Assembly (NCBI GenBank): GCA_013152275.1
Contig: JAADGS010000026.1
Span: 44,029-108,028 of the forward strand
DNA length: 64,000 bases
Direction: 5' to 3'
Source of the DNA: Actinomycetota bacterium
GTDB lineage: Bacteria; Actinomycetota; Acidimicrobiia; Spongiisociales; UBA4744
Below the pieces are notes generated by a model. The model saw only the letters and a program-made list of their open reading frames with translations, made no database searches and had not been told where the DNA came from. Of this stretch, positions 17,279 through 27,557 are shown one piece after another; position 1 is the stretch's first letter, and every line of letters begins with the position of its first letter. A program made the position numbers and the translations under genes.

Positions 17279-17956
17279 TCAGTGCCTTCCTGTGTCCTCC
17301 ACGGCGAGGTTTCGTGCTTCCCGGATCGCGGATACGACGAAGATCACGATCAGGACCGCGGCGAGAGCCCCAATCACCAGGTCATAGACCCCGACGGTAC
17401 CAAACACGGTGCTGATGTAGGGAATCGGACCGAAGAAGAGCAGAGCGTTGAACCCGATGATGATGGCTCGCACTTCGGTGGGTCCGAACCGCCCGTAGGA
17501 GATCTGGAACACGCCGCGCACATACGTTGTCAGGTAGACGTAGATGGAAAGGAGCAGGTAGCCCACGAGAGCGACGGCGGCAACGTTGAACGAAACGTAC
17601 GGAGAAAGCCCAAGACCGAACGCCACGAGCGTCTCGCTCACACCGTCGACGGCATGATCGACGAAGTAACCGTACTTTGGCCGTTCGATTCTCCGGTATC
17701 TGGCGATCGTTCCGTCGAGGGAATCCCCGAACCAGTTCACGACGAGACCGAAGCTGGCGAGCCAGAGAAACCACGGCGAAGCGTTACTGGCCCAGTAGCC
17801 GCCGAAGGTCATCAGTGATCCGACGATTCCGATCAGTGTGAGGGTGTCTGGTGTCATCCGCTCGGGCATATGCTTGGAGAGCCAGCGCAATGCGGGGCGT
17901 TCGAGAGGTCCGAGCAGGATGTCGTTGACTCGTTCGTGGGACGGGGACTCGCTCAT
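17279..17956 (-). CDS. CDP-alcohol phosphatidyltransferase family protein
   Basis: The 225-residue membrane protein has the complete family motif D-x2-DG-x2-AR-x8-G-x3-D-x3-D in GDSLDGTIARYRRIERPKYG and YFVDHAVD, near residues 80-105. Such enzymes move a phosphate-linked group from a CDP-alcohol to another alcohol, giving phospholipids such as phosphatidylglycerol or phosphatidylinositol phosphate. The acceptor here is not evident. The ATG at 17956 overlaps the stop of the upstream acyltransferase gene (ATGA). Confidence 0.85.
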   Translation of the reverse strand: MSESPSHERVNDILLGPLERPALRWLSKHMPERMTPDTLTLIGIVGSLMTFGGYWASNASPWFLWLASFGLVVNWFGDSLDGTIARYRRIERPKYGYFVDHAVDGVSETLVAFGLGLSPYVSFNVAAVALVGYLLLSIYVYLTTYVRGVFQISYGRFGPTEVRAIIIGFNALLFFGPIPYISTVFGTVGVYDLVIGALAAVLIVIFVVSAIREARNLAVEDTGRH

Positions 17957-18867
17957 TCGGCCTCCTCGGCATCGGGCCATACCGGGAAGAACATCAGCCA
18001 CTGCTCGGGGTGGGCACGAATGATGCGCTCTACCTCGGCGAGCGTCTCACGCCACAGCGTGCCGGCGACGTCGTCCTCTTCTATCTCCAGTGGATCGATC
18101 TGACTTCCGATGTTCAGACGGTACCGATCGTCGGGGGTTCGTTCCACCGAGATGATCTGCAGCAGAGCATCGGTCGATGCCGCGAGCCTGGCAAACCCAC
18201 TCCACAGGCGTGCGTCCTTGCCGAAGAACGTCGTTGTCTGCGCTCGTTTCCTTGGAGGAGGTGGCCGATCGACCGACGTGACCACGACGCCGCCGTTGCG
18301 CAGACGGGTTGCAGCTTCTCGCAGCGCATCGCCGGAGGACGGGGTGAGGATGAGTCCTTTGGTGGTCCGCAGGTCATTCATGAGTTCATAGCCGGATGGG
18401 GGGAGCGCGTAGGAAAGAACCTGGATGTCGTAGGTGCCTGCGTGGGGGGAGGCGGCCAAGCCGATCCCGGCGAGGTCCAGAGTGCTGACGTGTGGGGCCA
18501 CGATGAGAATCCCCCGGCCGGGACGGTTGGCCGGATCGAGGATCTCCCAGAGTGCCTGCGGCATTTCGACCAGGCGCCGGTTCTCTTCGATGGTCCCCCC
18601 GAGGGCGCGAAAGAAGTCGTAGCTTCCGCTTGCCGCGTGGAACAGGACCTCGTGGACGTAGGAATCGAGTCGAGGGTCGTCAGGGGTGGTGTCGAGGACG
18701 ACGGCCAGATTGGCTCGGATCGTTCGTGTGAGCGGCGTGTCGCGACGGGCGATCCAGCGTGTGATCCTTCTGAGCACGGCGTAGCCGAACCGGCGTGGAA
18801 CGAGAGCGCTGAGACGCATCGCGAGTCGGGTACCGGTACCTGTGACGAGAAAGTGCTGAAGGTTCAC
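17953..18867 (-). CDS. LPLAT/HtrB-type lipid acyltransferase
   Basis: The 304-residue protein has the HxxxxD acyltransferase box in APHVSTLDLAG (residues about 144-154) and an overall layout like lauroyl transferases and the actinobacterial PatA phosphatidylinositol mannoside acyltransferase. A Gram-positive-type cell would not need lipid A acylation, so a PatA-like role on a membrane glycolipid is more likely. It is the first of three tightly linked lipid genes. No mannosyltransferase (PimA) is adjacent, unlike the mycobacterial locus. Confidence 0.75.
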   Translation of the reverse strand: MNLQHFLVTGTGTRLAMRLSALVPRRFGYAVLRRITRWIARRDTPLTRTIRANLAVVLDTTPDDPRLDSYVHEVLFHAASGSYDFFRALGGTIEENRRLVEMPQALWEILDPANRPGRGILIVAPHVSTLDLAGIGLAASPHAGTYDIQVLSYALPPSGYELMNDLRTTKGLILTPSSGDALREAATRLRNGGVVVTSVDRPPPPRKRAQTTTFFGKDARLWSGFARLAASTDALLQIISVERTPDDRYRLNIGSQIDPLEIEEDDVAGTLWRETLAEVERIIRAHPEQWLMFFPVWPDAEEAE

Positions 18868-22254: not shown

Positions 22255-22535
22255 CGTTGGTCGTAGGCCTCTTGCACCTTCTGGCGCAGATCGAATTGGC
22301 TGGTCAGATTGTCTTTGAAGTGCCGGTACTGCGCGACGGACACGCCGTTGCCGGCGAGGCGACCGTCCAACTCGGCTTGAATGTCCGCCTGCGTGTCGAA
22401 CGTGAAGCGCTGGACGTCGCACATCCATCGTCCTTCGATGGACGCCAACAGGTCGGCATCGTAAGAGGGCGCACACCCGGCCACCAGGATGGCCACGATC
22501 ACGGCGATGGCGACGGCGACAGTGACTCTTCGCAT
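22242..22535 (-). CDS. Small putative lipoprotein
   Basis: The 97-residue product has a signal peptide ending in LVAGC (lipobox, Cys about residue 20) and a mature part of some 75 residues, mostly helical and polar, with two further Cys (in RWMCDV and QRCNT). The ATG at 22535 is chosen because the signal peptide begins there. It overlaps the secreted two-domain protein gene by 13 bases, so both products are likely made together and meet outside the membrane. Confidence 0.65.
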   Translation of the reverse strand: MRRVTVAVAIAVIVAILVAGCAPSYDADLLASIEGRWMCDVQRFTFDTQADIQAELDGRLAGNGVSVAQYRHFKDNLTSQFDLRQKVQEAYDQRCNT

Positions 22536-22741
22536 GAACTCGACATCGGCCGATACCCGCGGCGGCTTGAGGAAGAGATTGGGCCGGGAGATACGACGAG
22601 GGGTCATGCATGGAGAGCAGGGAGGCGTGCGCCGACAGGGCTTCGTCGGGATTGTGAGAAGACGTGCCCGATCGGCACGCGTATGCACGAGAGACCGTGG
22701 GTCATGTCGAGAATGAATGCCGCCATGAGGCGTGCGACAGG

Positions 22742-24715
22742 CTACGGGCGCACGTATCGACCCAGTGCACGATCCAGTTCCGGCCGGCCGACGACCAATT
22801 CGCTCTTGCCGTTCCGCAGCACCGTCAAGGCCGCTTCACGCAGCATCCCGGCAAGGTCGGCAAATGACAGGCCGTCGGTGCGCCGGGCCAGCTCATCCAG
22901 GTCCACATCGTCGGCAAAAGGTACATCCGACAAGCCCAGCAGGGCTCGGCGGGCATCAACTCCCGGCACGCCCAACTCCAGGTGCACCTCGAACCTTCCG
23001 GCTCGCAACAGCGCCGGGTCGATCAGATCCGGACGGTTCGTGGCTCCGATCACCGCCACGTTGCCACGTTCGGCAACGCCGTCCATCTCGGTGAGGAGCG
23101 CCGCTACCACCGAGTCGGTCACCGACGTGGTCGAACGTCCCCGCACCGGTGCCAGGGCGTCGAGCTCGTCGAAGAACAGGATCGCCGGCGAAGCCGCTCT
23201 CGCCCGGGCGAAGATCTCCCGAACGCCACGCTCGGACTCTCCGACGAACTTGTCCAGCAGCTCCGCACCCTTGATCGGAAAGAACGCCGCGCTGGACTCG
23301 TGTGCCAGCGCTCGCACGACGAAGGTCTTGCCCGTCCCTGGGGGCCCGTACAGCAGGACTCCTCGGGGTGGGTCGATGCCGAGCTGTTCAAATCGCCCGG
23401 GGCTGGTCACAGGCCAGATCACGGACTCCGTCAGCCGTTGTTTGACGTCTGACAGGTTCGCCACCTTCTCGAACCCGTACGACGGCACTTCGCCCATGGC
23501 CGTCGAACCCAGCGACGGTACGGTCGACTCGACCGCCTCGAGGAGCAGGGCGGTCGTCAACTCCCCACCTCGGCGAGTTGCCAAAGCGGACGCGTGGACG
23601 ACCGCCGCGGTGATGTCCGCACCGGAGAACCCGGCCGACCGGGCTGCCAACAGATCGAAGTCGAGATCCCTCGACGGTATCCGCTCCGTTGCCGCTTCGA
23701 ACAGAAGCCGGCGCCGTTGCAGATCTGGTGGTGGGACGGTCAGTGTGCGGGGGAGCAGTGCCGACCCTGCCAGGATGTCATCCAGCGTCGCCGCCGACGT
23801 CACTCCCAGAACGCACGCCACACCGGAACGCTCCGCTATGGCGTCGAGGAACCAGCGCAAGATCGCAGCCACCTGGGTGCGAAACGGTGCCAAGCCCTCT
23901 TCGCCGGCGACCGTCTCTACGCGGTCGACGAACAGCACCGCCGGTGCGGTGACCTGTTTCACGGCCTTCTCCAACACCGTCAACAGCCGGTCCGGTTTGA
24001 AGACCAGGTTGAGGTTCACCTCGGTCATCGCGGCGCCGGCCGCAGCTGCGGCAGCACCCACCAGTTCGGACTTGCCGCACCCGGTCGGTCCTTCGAGCTG
24101 CACACCGGCGACCTTCGGTAGGCCCCAGGCCGAGGGCAGGTCGTCGGGCGATGTCAGGAGCGTCAGCCATGCGGTGAGTGTCTCCAACTCCTCGTCGAGC
24201 CCGGCGAGGGCCGCCAGGTCGCGGGTACGACGCGGCGGCGCCACCGATGCGGCCGGAACAACGATCGACTCGGGCACGAACCGGGTGGCGGCGGTCACCA
24301 TCCCTGCAGGGCCGGGGAAGACCGTCACGATCCGCAGAGGTACCGGACGATCGCCGCCGTCCGTGTAGGAAGGGTCTACCGCGAGCACATCACCCGGAGT
24401 GACAGGCCGACCCTGCAACGCGTGCACGAGTGTGCGGGCGTCGAGCGGAAGGTTGTCACCGGTGATCGTGACCATCTCTGCAGTGGGCAGTATGGCTCGT
24501 CGTACCTCGACCACCTGGCCGGTCGTGACACCCGCGTTCGTGATCGCCTCGGGACCGAGTCGCAACGCGTTGATCTCGGACAGGTCGGCGGGATGAACGA
24601 TCGTATGGGTCGCACCGACCCGGATCACACCGCCGCCGGGCAGACCCATCGCCGAGAGCAGCGTCGCGTCGGCACCCGCAGTCGGGTCGGTGCCGGGGCG
24701 GACGGTGAAACGCAT
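22742..24715 (-). CDS. Cdc48/VAT-like double AAA ATPase with degenerate first AAA domain
   Basis: The 657-residue protein has an N-terminal Cdc48-type domain (residues about 1-155) and two AAA modules. D1 has Walker A GPTGCGKS (209-216) but its Walker B reads LFVDRVE, with Arg in place of the catalytic Glu (265), and lacks the paired arginine fingers. D2 is canonical: GPPGTGKT (457-464), ILFFDELDA (D516, E517), GATN sensor and R571/R574 in LLRAGRFE. D1 probably binds but does not hydrolyse ATP. Cdc48-like proteins unfold or extract substrates. The ATG at 24715 fits the domain start. Confidence 0.9.
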   Translation of the reverse strand: MRFTVRPGTDPTAGADATLLSAMGLPGGGVIRVGATHTIVHPADLSEINALRLGPEAITNAGVTTGQVVEVRRAILPTAEMVTITGDNLPLDARTLVHALQGRPVTPGDVLAVDPSYTDGGDRPVPLRIVTVFPGPAGMVTAATRFVPESIVVPAASVAPPRRTRDLAALAGLDEELETLTAWLTLLTSPDDLPSAWGLPKVAGVQLEGPTGCGKSELVGAAAAAAGAAMTEVNLNLVFKPDRLLTVLEKAVKQVTAPAVLFVDRVETVAGEEGLAPFRTQVAAILRWFLDAIAERSGVACVLGVTSAATLDDILAGSALLPRTLTVPPPDLQRRRLLFEAATERIPSRDLDFDLLAARSAGFSGADITAAVVHASALATRRGGELTTALLLEAVESTVPSLGSTAMGEVPSYGFEKVANLSDVKQRLTESVIWPVTSPGRFEQLGIDPPRGVLLYGPPGTGKTFVVRALAHESSAAFFPIKGAELLDKFVGESERGVREIFARARAASPAILFFDELDALAPVRGRSTTSVTDSVVAALLTEMDGVAERGNVAVIGATNRPDLIDPALLRAGRFEVHLELGVPGVDARRALLGLSDVPFADDVDLDELARRTDGLSFADLAGMLREAALTVLRNGKSELVVGRPELDRALGRYVRP

Positions 24716-24904: not shown

Positions 24905-26551
24905 TCAACGACGAGAGTCGACGTTCGCCAAAGAGAGCTCCGGGATCGGTCTACACGGCAGTGCCAGTGGTCCTGAGGCGTCCAGGAGACGAACGCGGCT
25001 ACCGGCGAGCCATTGCCATATGAGATGAGCCTCTTCGGCGACCTGGACCGATGGCGGCGTCGGCGGCCACTCGTCTTCCAGGGTGGCGGTCGTGGAAGTG
25101 AGGGCCGGACCGGTCGACCCATTCCACGAGAGGACGAGACGGCCCCGTTCGATGAGGGCACCGTCGCCGCCATCGGATTCAACCCGGAGCAGTCCGGCCC
25201 GGTTGAGGGCATGCCACTCACGGCGGCGCAGCAATGCCCTCGCCAGGGCACGATATCGGTCACGAGCCCACGTGGCCTCCTCAAAACGCCGGAGTGCCGC
25301 CATGTGCGACATCTTTGCTGCAAGCGGATCGAGGAGCAGGGAAGGATCCGCGGCGATGCCTCGACGGAGGAGATCCACGATCGACGCGTATGCCGTCTCG
25401 GAGAGGCTCCCATCGCACGGGCACATCGACACGCCAAGTTGGGCGGCGGCACACCGTCCGTTGCGTTCACCCGGTCGGACGGTGCAGCGTCGAATCGGCA
25501 GAGCATCCCAGATGGCGGTCATCACGAGTTCGGCACTTCGTCGGCTTCGGAACGGCCCCAGGTAGGCCAGACCGTCCTCCCGCTGGGTGCGTACGAGGGA
25601 CAACCGTGGAAAGGCTTCCTTGGTCAGCTTGACCCAATGCGACGACTTCGGCGGCTTCGAGCGGCGATTGTGACGAGGTCGGTAGGCGTGGATCAGTCGC
25701 AACTCGGTGACTTCGGCCTCGAGTTCGGTCGCGCAGACACGATGCTCGATCCTGTCGAGTTCCTGCAACATCGTCGTGACGGTCCGGCGATGGTCGCCAT
25801 AGAAGTAGCTGCGGACCCTCGTTCTCAGGTTCTTGGCCTTGCCTACGTAGAACACGGTGTCGTTGCGATCGTGGAACAGGTAGACGCCCGGCCGGCGGGG
25901 TAGTGCATCGGTCAGATGGATCTTCGCATAGTGTTCGGACCCGCGTGCCGTCGGAAGTTGGAGAAGATCCTCGAGGGCGGTCACTCCGAGCGTTCCTGCC
26001 CGCTCGAGCAGACGATGCAGGATCCAGGCAGTGGCCCGCGCATCTTCGAGTGCGCGATGGGTGGGTTTGATCGGTGCACGAAAATGTGCAGCAAGCGTCG
26101 CCAACTTGAAGTTGCGAACCTCCTTGCGTACGAGGCGGCGCGCCAGACCCAGTGTGTCCACCCACCGGTTGCCGAGCTTCCCGTATCCGAGATCGAGCGC
26201 TGCCGCGTTGAGGAACGACAGGTCGAAGCGAACGTTGTGGCCAACGATCACCGCACCGCCGAGGAACTCGAGGAATGCGGGGAACACCTCGGCGATCTTG
26301 GGGGCGTTGATCACCATCGCGTGCGTGATTCCCGTCAGGATCGTGATGAACGGAGGGATCTCGCATCCTGGGTCGACGAGGGTCTGGAACGATCCGATCT
26401 CCTCGCCGCCTCGATACAGGACGGCGCCGATCTCGGTGATCGCGCAGTTCGGCGGCGTGGTGCCGGTGGTTTCGAGGTCGAGGACACAGAATGGTACGTC
26501 GCACAACGGTGCGCCCATCTCGTCAAAACTGCGCTGCACCGCGAGTGTCAC
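24905..26551 (-). CDS. DnaQ-type 3'-5' exonuclease fused to UvrC-like GIY-YIG nuclease
   Basis: Residues about 20-185 form a DEDDh exonuclease: D25 and E27 in VLDLETTG, D110 in GHNVRFDLSF, and H165 and D170 in THRALEDA. Residues about 218-300 form a GIY-YIG domain (PGVYLFHDRN, VFYVGKAKNLRTRVRSY). The rest resembles the middle of UvrC, but the RNase H-like second nuclease and HhH tail are absent, as in Cho-type proteins. Such fusions are known from actinobacteria. The GTG at 26551 lies 13 bases after a LexA box, so SOS control is likely. It may act in excision or processing of damaged DNA. Confidence 0.9.
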   Translation of the reverse strand: MTLAVQRSFDEMGAPLCDVPFCVLDLETTGTTPPNCAITEIGAVLYRGGEEIGSFQTLVDPGCEIPPFITILTGITHAMVINAPKIAEVFPAFLEFLGGAVIVGHNVRFDLSFLNAAALDLGYGKLGNRWVDTLGLARRLVRKEVRNFKLATLAAHFRAPIKPTHRALEDARATAWILHRLLERAGTLGVTALEDLLQLPTARGSEHYAKIHLTDALPRRPGVYLFHDRNDTVFYVGKAKNLRTRVRSYFYGDHRRTVTTMLQELDRIEHRVCATELEAEVTELRLIHAYRPRHNRRSKPPKSSHWVKLTKEAFPRLSLVRTQREDGLAYLGPFRSRRSAELVMTAIWDALPIRRCTVRPGERNGRCAAAQLGVSMCPCDGSLSETAYASIVDLLRRGIAADPSLLLDPLAAKMSHMAALRRFEEATWARDRYRALARALLRRREWHALNRAGLLRVESDGGDGALIERGRLVLSWNGSTGPALTSTTATLEDEWPPTPPSVQVAEEAHLIWQWLAGSRVRLLDASGPLALPCRPIPELSLANVDSRR

Positions 26552-26726: not shown

Positions 26727-27557
26727 CTACCGGTTGTCGGCTGTCGCTTGTCGACGGGTTGAGCGTTGACGGACGGCCTCGTACAGCATCACACCCGCGG
26801 CCATCGCCGCGTTGAGGCTGTCCGCGTCACCGAGCATCGGGATGCGGACCAGCTCATCGGCAGATCTCATCCACATCTCGGACAGGCCGTATTGCTCCGA
26901 GCCGATCGCGAGCGCACTCGGTCCCCGGTAGTCGGCTTCCCAGTGGAGGCGTTCGGCGGCCGGGGTGGCGGCAAAGGTCTTGACATCGCGCGCCGCGAGC
27001 CATGCCAACGTCTCGGTGCTCGATGCGATGGCCAGCGGCACGAGGAACAGGCATCCCAACGACGCCCGCACGGCGTTCGGATTGAAAGGGTCGGTCGTCG
27101 GGTCGGAGACGATCACCGCATCGACCCCGGCGGCGTCGGCGGTCCTCAGCATGGTGCCGAGGTTCCCAGGCTTCTCGATCGACTCGACGACCAGCACGAG
27201 CGGGTTCTCTTTCAGCACGATGCGGTCCAGTTCCGTCGGAAACTGTCGGGCAAGACCGATGAGACCTTCCGGTCGGTCCCGGTAGCTGATCTTGCGGAAA
27301 GGGTCTTCGGCGAACTCGATGAGGCGAGCGCCGGCGGCTCCGGCGGCCTCGAGGAGAGAGTGCTCGTTGGGGCCAAGGAACAGCGGAGGGCAGTAGGCGA
27401 CTTCTTCGAGTTGGATGTGGGAGGCGATCGCCCGGGTGAGTTCTCGATACCCCTCGATCATGAAGAGACCCTCGGCATCGCGATGACGCCGGTTACGGAG
27501 CCGCACGAGACGCTTGACACGCGGATTCTGAGTCGAGGTGATGCGAGATTCGGTCAC
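26727..27557 (-). CDS. TrmH/SpoU-family RNA 2'-O-methyltransferase
   Basis: The 276-residue SPOUT enzyme has the three family motifs: ESIEKPGNLGTMLRTADAAG, ALAIGSEQYGLSEMW and VRIPMLGDADSLNAAMAAGV. An N-terminal substrate-binding domain (residues 1-100, ITSTQNPRVKRLVRL) is typical of 23S rRNA Gm methyltransferases. The exact target nucleotide is not predictable. Its ATG overlaps the stop of a 78-codon gene (ATGA). It is the last gene of a minus-strand run starting at pntAA. Confidence 0.88.
   Translation of the reverse strand: MTESRITSTQNPRVKRLVRLRNRRHRDAEGLFMIEGYRELTRAIASHIQLEEVAYCPPLFLGPNEHSLLEAAGAAGARLIEFAEDPFRKISYRDRPEGLIGLARQFPTELDRIVLKENPLVLVVESIEKPGNLGTMLRTADAAGVDAVIVSDPTTDPFNPNAVRASLGCLFLVPLAIASSTETLAWLAARDVKTFAATPAAERLHWEADYRGPSALAIGSEQYGLSEMWMRSADELVRIPMLGDADSLNAAMAAGVMLYEAVRQRSTRRQATADNR

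Follow-up and report, generated by a model that had tools for sequence, protein, structure and literature searches.

A Cpa-related double-ring AAA protein of Acidimicrobiia with a conserved basic residue in place of the D1 Walker B glutamate

Can one ring of a Cdc48-type ATPase give up its catalytic glutamate and still be kept? The question is raised by a gene in a 64,000-nucleotide stretch of contig JAADGS010000026.1 (assembly GCA_013152275.1, an actinomycetotal genome of the class Acidimicrobiia), hereafter the window. Its initial annotation described a Cdc48-like protein in which the first AAA ring, D1, has an Arg where the Walker B Glu is expected and looks inactive, and the second ring, D2, is intact.

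One degenerate and one intact AAA module

The annotated interval, given without a strand, is exactly the coding sequence, which translates from the minus strand; read on the plus strand, the same interval is interrupted by stops. The choice of ATG is supported by the alignment of relatives, whose consensus begins MRFxVR. Pfam finds two AAA stretches, two AAA_lid_3 stretches and one CDC48_2 stretch in the 657 residues and, together with the predicted structure, delimits an N-domain followed by two tandem AAA modules, the layout of two-ring Cdc48-type proteins (Table 1). The score with the NCBIfam CDC48 model (TIGR01243) is 340.6 bits, below the cut-off of 802.65. This is the only double-ring copy in its genome: the other matches there cover one AAA module each and are FtsH- or ARC-like by length and place; a second, canonical Cdc48 was not found among them. 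A 703-codon open frame (22257-24368 of the window, plus strand) runs antisense to most of the gene and is probably a by-product of GC-rich codon use.

Table 1. Features of the AAA gene, its product and its upstream neighbours (window coordinates)
Feature	Coordinates	Strand	Details
Cdc48/Cpa-like double-ring AAA protein	22742..24715	-	657 aa; ATG 24713-24715, stop 22742-22744
N-domain	24236..24715	-	residues 1-160; CDC48_2 match at residues 95-144
D1 AAA domain, catalytically degenerate by its motifs	23516..24232	-	about residues 162-400; D1-only AlphaFold2 model and structure match
D1 Walker A GPTGCGKS	24068..24091	-	residues 209-216 (G209, K215, S216)
D1 Walker B LFVDRVE	23915..23935	-	residues 261-267; Arg265 codon CGC at 23921-23923
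D1 Arg-finger stretch GSALLPR	23747..23767	-	residues 317-323; neither finger Arg present
D2 AAA domain, catalytically intact by its motifs	22745..23503	-	residues 405-657; Pfam AAA 453-582, AAA_lid_3 603-639; motif counts
D2 Walker A GPPGTGKT	23324..23347	-	residues 457-464; K463, T464 in 66/66 order-clade proteins with letters
D2 Walker B ILFFDE	23165..23182	-	Asp516, Glu517; D and E in 64/64 with letters
D2 Arg fingers R571, R574 (RAGR)	22994..23005	-	R at both in 63/63 with letters
DEDD exonuclease + GIY-YIG (UvrC-like) protein	24905..26551	-	189 bp before the AAA ATG; Pfam RNase_T, GIY-YIG; synteny
SpoU-family RNA methyltransferase	26727..27557	-	next neighbour upstream

In D1, the Walker B Asp264 is kept and Arg265 replaces the Glu. 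The two finger columns hold G317 and L320, with R323 falling in the next, non-finger column, and sensor-1 has Ser307 in place of the Asn of canonical proteins (a residue placed by eye, the automatic alignment being off by one column there). Inspection of the sequence near Arg265 revealed no clear substitute Glu: E267, two residues further, is an ordinary acidic position, and E217 is the residue next after the P-loop. D2 is canonical at K463, T464, D516, E517, N560, R571 and R574. The motif reading of the initial annotation, i.e.: a kept Walker A, Arg for Glu and no Arg fingers in D1 next to an intact D2, was thus confirmed. A same-genus relative, 88% identical, has the same D1 residues and the D1 motif is clade-wide (see below), ruling out a sequencing error or a lone mutation.

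AlphaFold2 modelling of the whole protein with 58 sequences gave a pLDDT of 83.2 and a pTM of 0.47, a value at which the predicted arrangement of the domains is unreliable; the N-domain forms a block with pLDDT 80-95 as far as residue 150. When D1 was modelled alone (residues 160-402; pLDDT 91.0, pTM 0.86), a complete AAA module was predicted, and its best structural match was D1 of p97 (9mpr_C, residues 198-463; Z 23.6, rmsd 3.2, 239 residues aligned). The Walker B strand of D1 is predicted at residues 259-264, ending right before Arg265, as the D2 strand (511-516) is predicted to end right before Glu517.

Conservation of D1 within the order

Searches covered 247 genomes of the class, 138 of the order, 198 of the phylum and a named genome collection (37 loci). 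Copies were merged into 95 distinct proteins, of which 70, some of them fragments, belong to the window's order-level clade of Acidimicrobiia (hereafter the order clade); before counting, the FtsH/ARC-like loci (L002-L004) were omitted, and so were L087, L124 and all copies of the gene in the window itself. Aligning actinobacterial Cdc48-like proteins at the D1 Glu column, a check that the initial annotation had proposed, gave 61 Arg, 5 His, 1 Gly and 3 gaps in the order clade: the residue is basic in 66 of 67 proteins and Glu in none. The single Gly comes from L051, a protein cut short by a contig end, which is similar to the window's protein no further than residue 263. Canonical CDC48s have the Glu in 4/4 proteins of the 95-protein set and in 10/10 of a larger, overlapping set, in which the Asp-Glu pair and the R-x-G-R-F finger motif are both found in all ten. 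Cpa-type proteins (n=21) have 10 Gly, 9 Asp, 1 Asn and 1 gap at this column.

Like the Glu, the sensor Asn is missing from D1 of all order-clade proteins with a letter at its column. The first Arg-finger column is variable (6 Arg and 10 Lys out of 67) and the second is never Arg (60 Leu, 6 Phe, 1 Tyr). Among Cpa-type proteins an Arg aligns at the second finger column in 13/21, suggesting that their D1 is less uniformly degraded there. D2 shows no departure from the canonical residues at its catalytic columns in any order-clade protein with letters there (63 to 66 proteins per column). The loss of Glu and sensor Asn across the clade, and of Arg at the second finger, lend good support at the level of sequence to the view that D1 is inactive-looking, and likewise to the stronger statement that D1 of the window's protein is catalytically dead.

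The nucleotide-binding motifs of D1 are less uniform. The Walker A Lys column has 56 Lys, 10 Arg, 1 Gly and 3 gaps; the residue that follows is neither Ser nor Thr in 12 of 67 proteins; and the Walker B Asp column has 60 Asp, 3 Asn, 2 Lys, 1 Gly, 1 Met (in L051) and 3 gaps. These replacements suggest that the holding of nucleotide may be lost in some lineages, and that D1 nucleotide binding may be changing within the clade. Lys is replaced by Arg in L118, L117, L131, L064, L106, L126, L035, L067, L040 and L042, and by Gly in L140. Across 53 full-length relatives (at least 600 residues long and at least 57% identical), E217 is present in all, as are G362 and D367 of the sensor-2 stretch GFSG.D, and F363 and S364 are present in 52.

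We sought to establish if the basic charge is maintained. In a full-protein tree of 69 of the 95 rows (those shorter than 550 residues and 16 named near-copies or extra rows were omitted), the clade accounts for 52 rows and a total of 18.2 changes per column. Over these branches the Glu column shows zero changes between basic and non-basic residues and needs 2 steps where the median D1 column needs 8, suggesting that the charge is maintained; it is one of 5 all-basic columns among the 226 of D1. The mean number of steps per column is 13.7 in the N-domain, 9.8 in D1 and 6.0 in D2, which indicates that D1 is constrained, though less so than D2. Neutral decay of D1 is therefore disfavoured, both by the column that stays basic and by the greater conservation of D1 over the N-domain.

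Kinship with Cpa and other asymmetric double rings

A D2-only tree, rooted on FtsH, was computed from 20 order-clade, 12 Cpa, 10 canonical and 3 outgroup rows. The order clade groups with Cpa (support 98/98), with the 10 canonical CDC48s outside; one outgroup row (ARC-like) landed among the latter. Cpa alone is weakly supported as a clade (78/46), and the order clade sits on a long stem (length 0.92 in the D2 tree and 2.88 in the full-protein tree). As judged from these sequences, the window's clade is a divergent Cpa-related branch, either sister to Cpa or nested in it. The altered D1 would then most simply have been inherited from a common ancestor with Cpa, and the charge reversal would be peculiar to this order. 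Four loci from genomes of the same phylum (L143, L144, L158 and L159) encode canonical CDC48s with an intact D1 (Asp-Glu and finger motif) that fall apart from Cpa in the D2 tree.

The window's protein has in common with Cpa (Msm0858/Rv0435c; PDB 5e7p; PMC6017811) the N-D1-D2 layout, the intact D2, and a D1 with an altered Walker B and without the sensor Asn. Ziemski et al. 2018 (PMC6017811) describe Cpa as carrying the sensor Asn and the Arg finger solely in D2, with mildly degenerate D1 motifs, and our motif alignment places both in D2 only in the window's protein too. The same paper reports nucleotide-dependent hexamers, proteasome binding and the lack of an HbYX C-terminus for Cpa; the window's protein, which ends in VRP, likewise has no HbYX.

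The two also differ. Identity to Cpa-type rows is 32-38%; the D1 Glu column is Arg or His in the order clade and Gly, Asp or Asn in Cpa; and the D1 Walker B Asp, kept in 60/67 order-clade proteins, is found in 0/20 Cpa rows. Both the D1 pore stretch and the C-terminal tail are shorter in the order clade. The pore-loop-1 stretch has 7 residues in 20/20 order-clade rows, 10 or 13 in the 12 Cpa rows and 13 in 10/10 canonical ones, and the tail after the D2 lid measures 4-12 residues in the order clade, 22-30 in 11 of 12 Cpa rows and 8-39 in canonical proteins; the twelfth Cpa row, with a tail of 0, is taken to be L047, whose match ends at its contig end. The gene neighbourhood differs as well: a nuclease gene adjoins the window's AAA gene instead of psd-pssA. 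The psd-pssA-cpa operon is absent at the window's locus, where the neighbours encode the nuclease and a SpoU-family protein; according to PMC6017811 this operon is limited to Cpa branches 1 and 2, branch 3 being without it. With canonical CDC48s (VAT, p97) the window's protein has in common the fold of N, D1 and D2, and differs in having neither the D1 Glu nor the R-x-G-R-F fingers that they keep.

Asymmetric double rings have precedents. According to Kienle et al. 2016 (PMC5070193), D1 of Pex1/Pex6 is severely degenerate and adds nothing to the ATPase activity but might help the hexamer to form, and NSF has a degenerate D2 in which the gamma-phosphate is touched by a Lys. Both combine one working ring with one degenerate ring, as here, although in D1 for the former and D2 for the latter; they are eukaryotic, and our trees were built without them. 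D1/D2 asymmetry has been described in print for Cpa, Pex1/Pex6 and NSF and is a known trait of the Cpa family, so that a weak D1 by itself brings nothing new. The novelty lies in a divergent branch related to Cpa whose D1 carries a conserved charge reversal, whose D1 pore-loop stretch and C-terminal tail are both shorter, and whose gene is steadily linked to a nuclease gene. We found no literature report of a Walker B Glu replaced by arginine, which is weak evidence of absence. The clade amounts to a natural experiment in which the catalytic Glu of D1 became a conserved basic residue, and it could show what D1 does without ATP hydrolysis.

The nuclease neighbour and the possible role of D1

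The gene directly upstream encodes a nuclease whose counterpart we take to be Rv2191. Its product scores 580 bits with NCBIfam NF005907, above the cut-off of 454. In the 138 genomes of the order, 65 have both genes, 4 only the AAA gene (these are 68-77% complete), 30 only the nuclease gene and 39 neither. With the count restricted to genomes listed as 90% complete or more (n=81), the figures are 37 with both, 0 with the AAA gene alone, 19 with the nuclease gene alone and 25 with neither, all uncorrected for kinship and based on rounded completeness figures with no contamination filter. In these counts, AAA presence (69/138) stands for matches of about 40% identity or more, some of them fragments, read apart from FtsH-like matches of about 30%; for a gene split over two contigs the N-terminal piece was counted; and the nuclease was scored as absent where no match reached E 1e-60.

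The nuclease gene lies upstream of the AAA gene and on the same strand in 61 of the 62 contigs that carry both, with a gap, measured between match ends, of less than 200 bp in 37 and more than 200 bp in 24. In G207 it lies downstream, and in 5 further genomes the two genes are on separate contigs. Six of the wide gaps were inspected by eye, and the open frames inside them vary between loci. The nuclease gene is likewise duplicated in G201 and G293, the two genomes with a second full-length AAA copy, and each AAA copy there has a nuclease gene upstream (gaps of 47 and 1644 bp in G201, and of 50 and 43 bp in G293); these are metagenome bins, and the duplicated pairs could possibly reflect mixed strains. 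Of 12 regions from genomes lacking the AAA gene, 10 have the nuclease gene near SpoU, the two sharing a strand in 8 and lying on opposite strands in 2; no AAA-protein match (E 1e-4) was found in the 12 regions, three of which hold less than 3.7 kb downstream of the nuclease. Since this pair persists without it, the AAA gene may simply have kept its place in an ancestral gene arrangement.

Two other leads were set aside. A prcB match, found in 42/42 carriers of the AAA gene, is found in 20/20 listed same-order non-carriers as well, so that co-occurrence with the 20S proteasome, expected of a Cpa protein, has no power as evidence; the window's own genome has two proteasome-family genes side by side. 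The other lead was a role in anti-phage defence. Of the PADLOC matches of the AAA protein, only mad8 (37.7 bits, residues 205-320) falls in D1 and the others fall in the D2 module; those of the nuclease fall in its exonuclease part. The top-matching stretches of the AAA protein in PHROGs are all inside D1 or D2.

The account towards which we lean, with guarded confidence, is that of a Cpa relative, probably hexameric, with D2 as its sole ATP-driven motor, D1 as an organising ring that would not hydrolyse ATP, and a role in a DNA-repair-related step, as suggested by the adjoining nuclease gene. D1 lacks the Glu, the sensor Asn, a second Arg finger and a pore-loop stretch of canonical form, while retaining a predicted AAA fold, the sensor-2 stretch and, usually, the Walker A Lys; it might keep both the N-domains and the hexamer positioned and signal to D2 via the linker. 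At the Glu position, the basic residue would most likely stabilise the resting D1 ring and perhaps, by analogy with the Lys in the degenerate D2 of NSF, contact the phosphates of a bound nucleotide. According to PMC5070193, the Asp of the GAD motif in Cdc48 D1 touches the D1-D2 linker and does not face the nucleotide; its retention here speaks for linker contact rather than for nucleotide binding. The putative substrates would be proteins that the machine remodels or clears in that repair-related step. The suggestion of the initial annotation that D1 serves as a fixed assembly platform fits this account, by analogy with D1 of Pex1/Pex6 and D2 of NSF (PMC5070193).

The Walker A replacements bear on a second reading, possible if doubtful, in which D1 is a purely structural pseudo-ATPase with no bound nucleotide, its basic residue filling the pocket through salt bridges, e.g. 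with E217 or the Walker B Asp. The invariance of E217 fits this, as does the replacement of the Walker A Lys in 11/67 proteins and of the Ser/Thr after it in 12/67, and Pex1/Pex6 D1 provides a precedent (PMC5070193). Yet the Lys is kept in 56/67, and an unused P-loop would be expected to have decayed further. A more elaborate reading, which we regard as unlikely, takes the Arg or His as an intrinsic lock that would hold the D1 nucleotide unhydrolysed, making D1 a permanent collar of a machine that clears proteins from DNA lesions with the nuclease.

Motif loss must be read as inactivity with caution, given what is reported for M. smegmatis Cpa (Msm0858): PMC5515868, citing Unciuleac 2016, states that both its domains were reported to hydrolyse ATP despite altered D1 motifs. 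Slow hydrolysis by D1 of the window's protein, along the same lines, seems improbable to us. In our alignment Msm0858 D1 has Ala-Asp instead of Asp-Glu, and the Asp in its Glu column might still act, whereas the Arg or His of the order clade is expected not to; the order clade also lacks the sensor Asn, and its second finger column is Leu, Phe or Tyr in 67/67. A D1 ring that functions solely when a different AAA protein joins it and supplies the missing residues is very improbable. The two full-length copies in 2/138 genomes speak for such mixed rings; against them, both copies of G201 (L099 and L055) share the same Asn-Arg D1 motif, and the window's own genome has a single double-ring copy.

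Linkage to the gene of a DNA-repair-type nuclease offers a testable connection for bacterial Cdc48-like proteins, about whose roles little is known, in addition to their published links with the proteasome and with lipid genes. Elsewhere in the window (17279-18867, minus strand), a CDP-alcohol phosphatidyltransferase gene lies beside that of a lipid-A-type acyltransferase homologue, and the same block is found in the same order in the relative L052.
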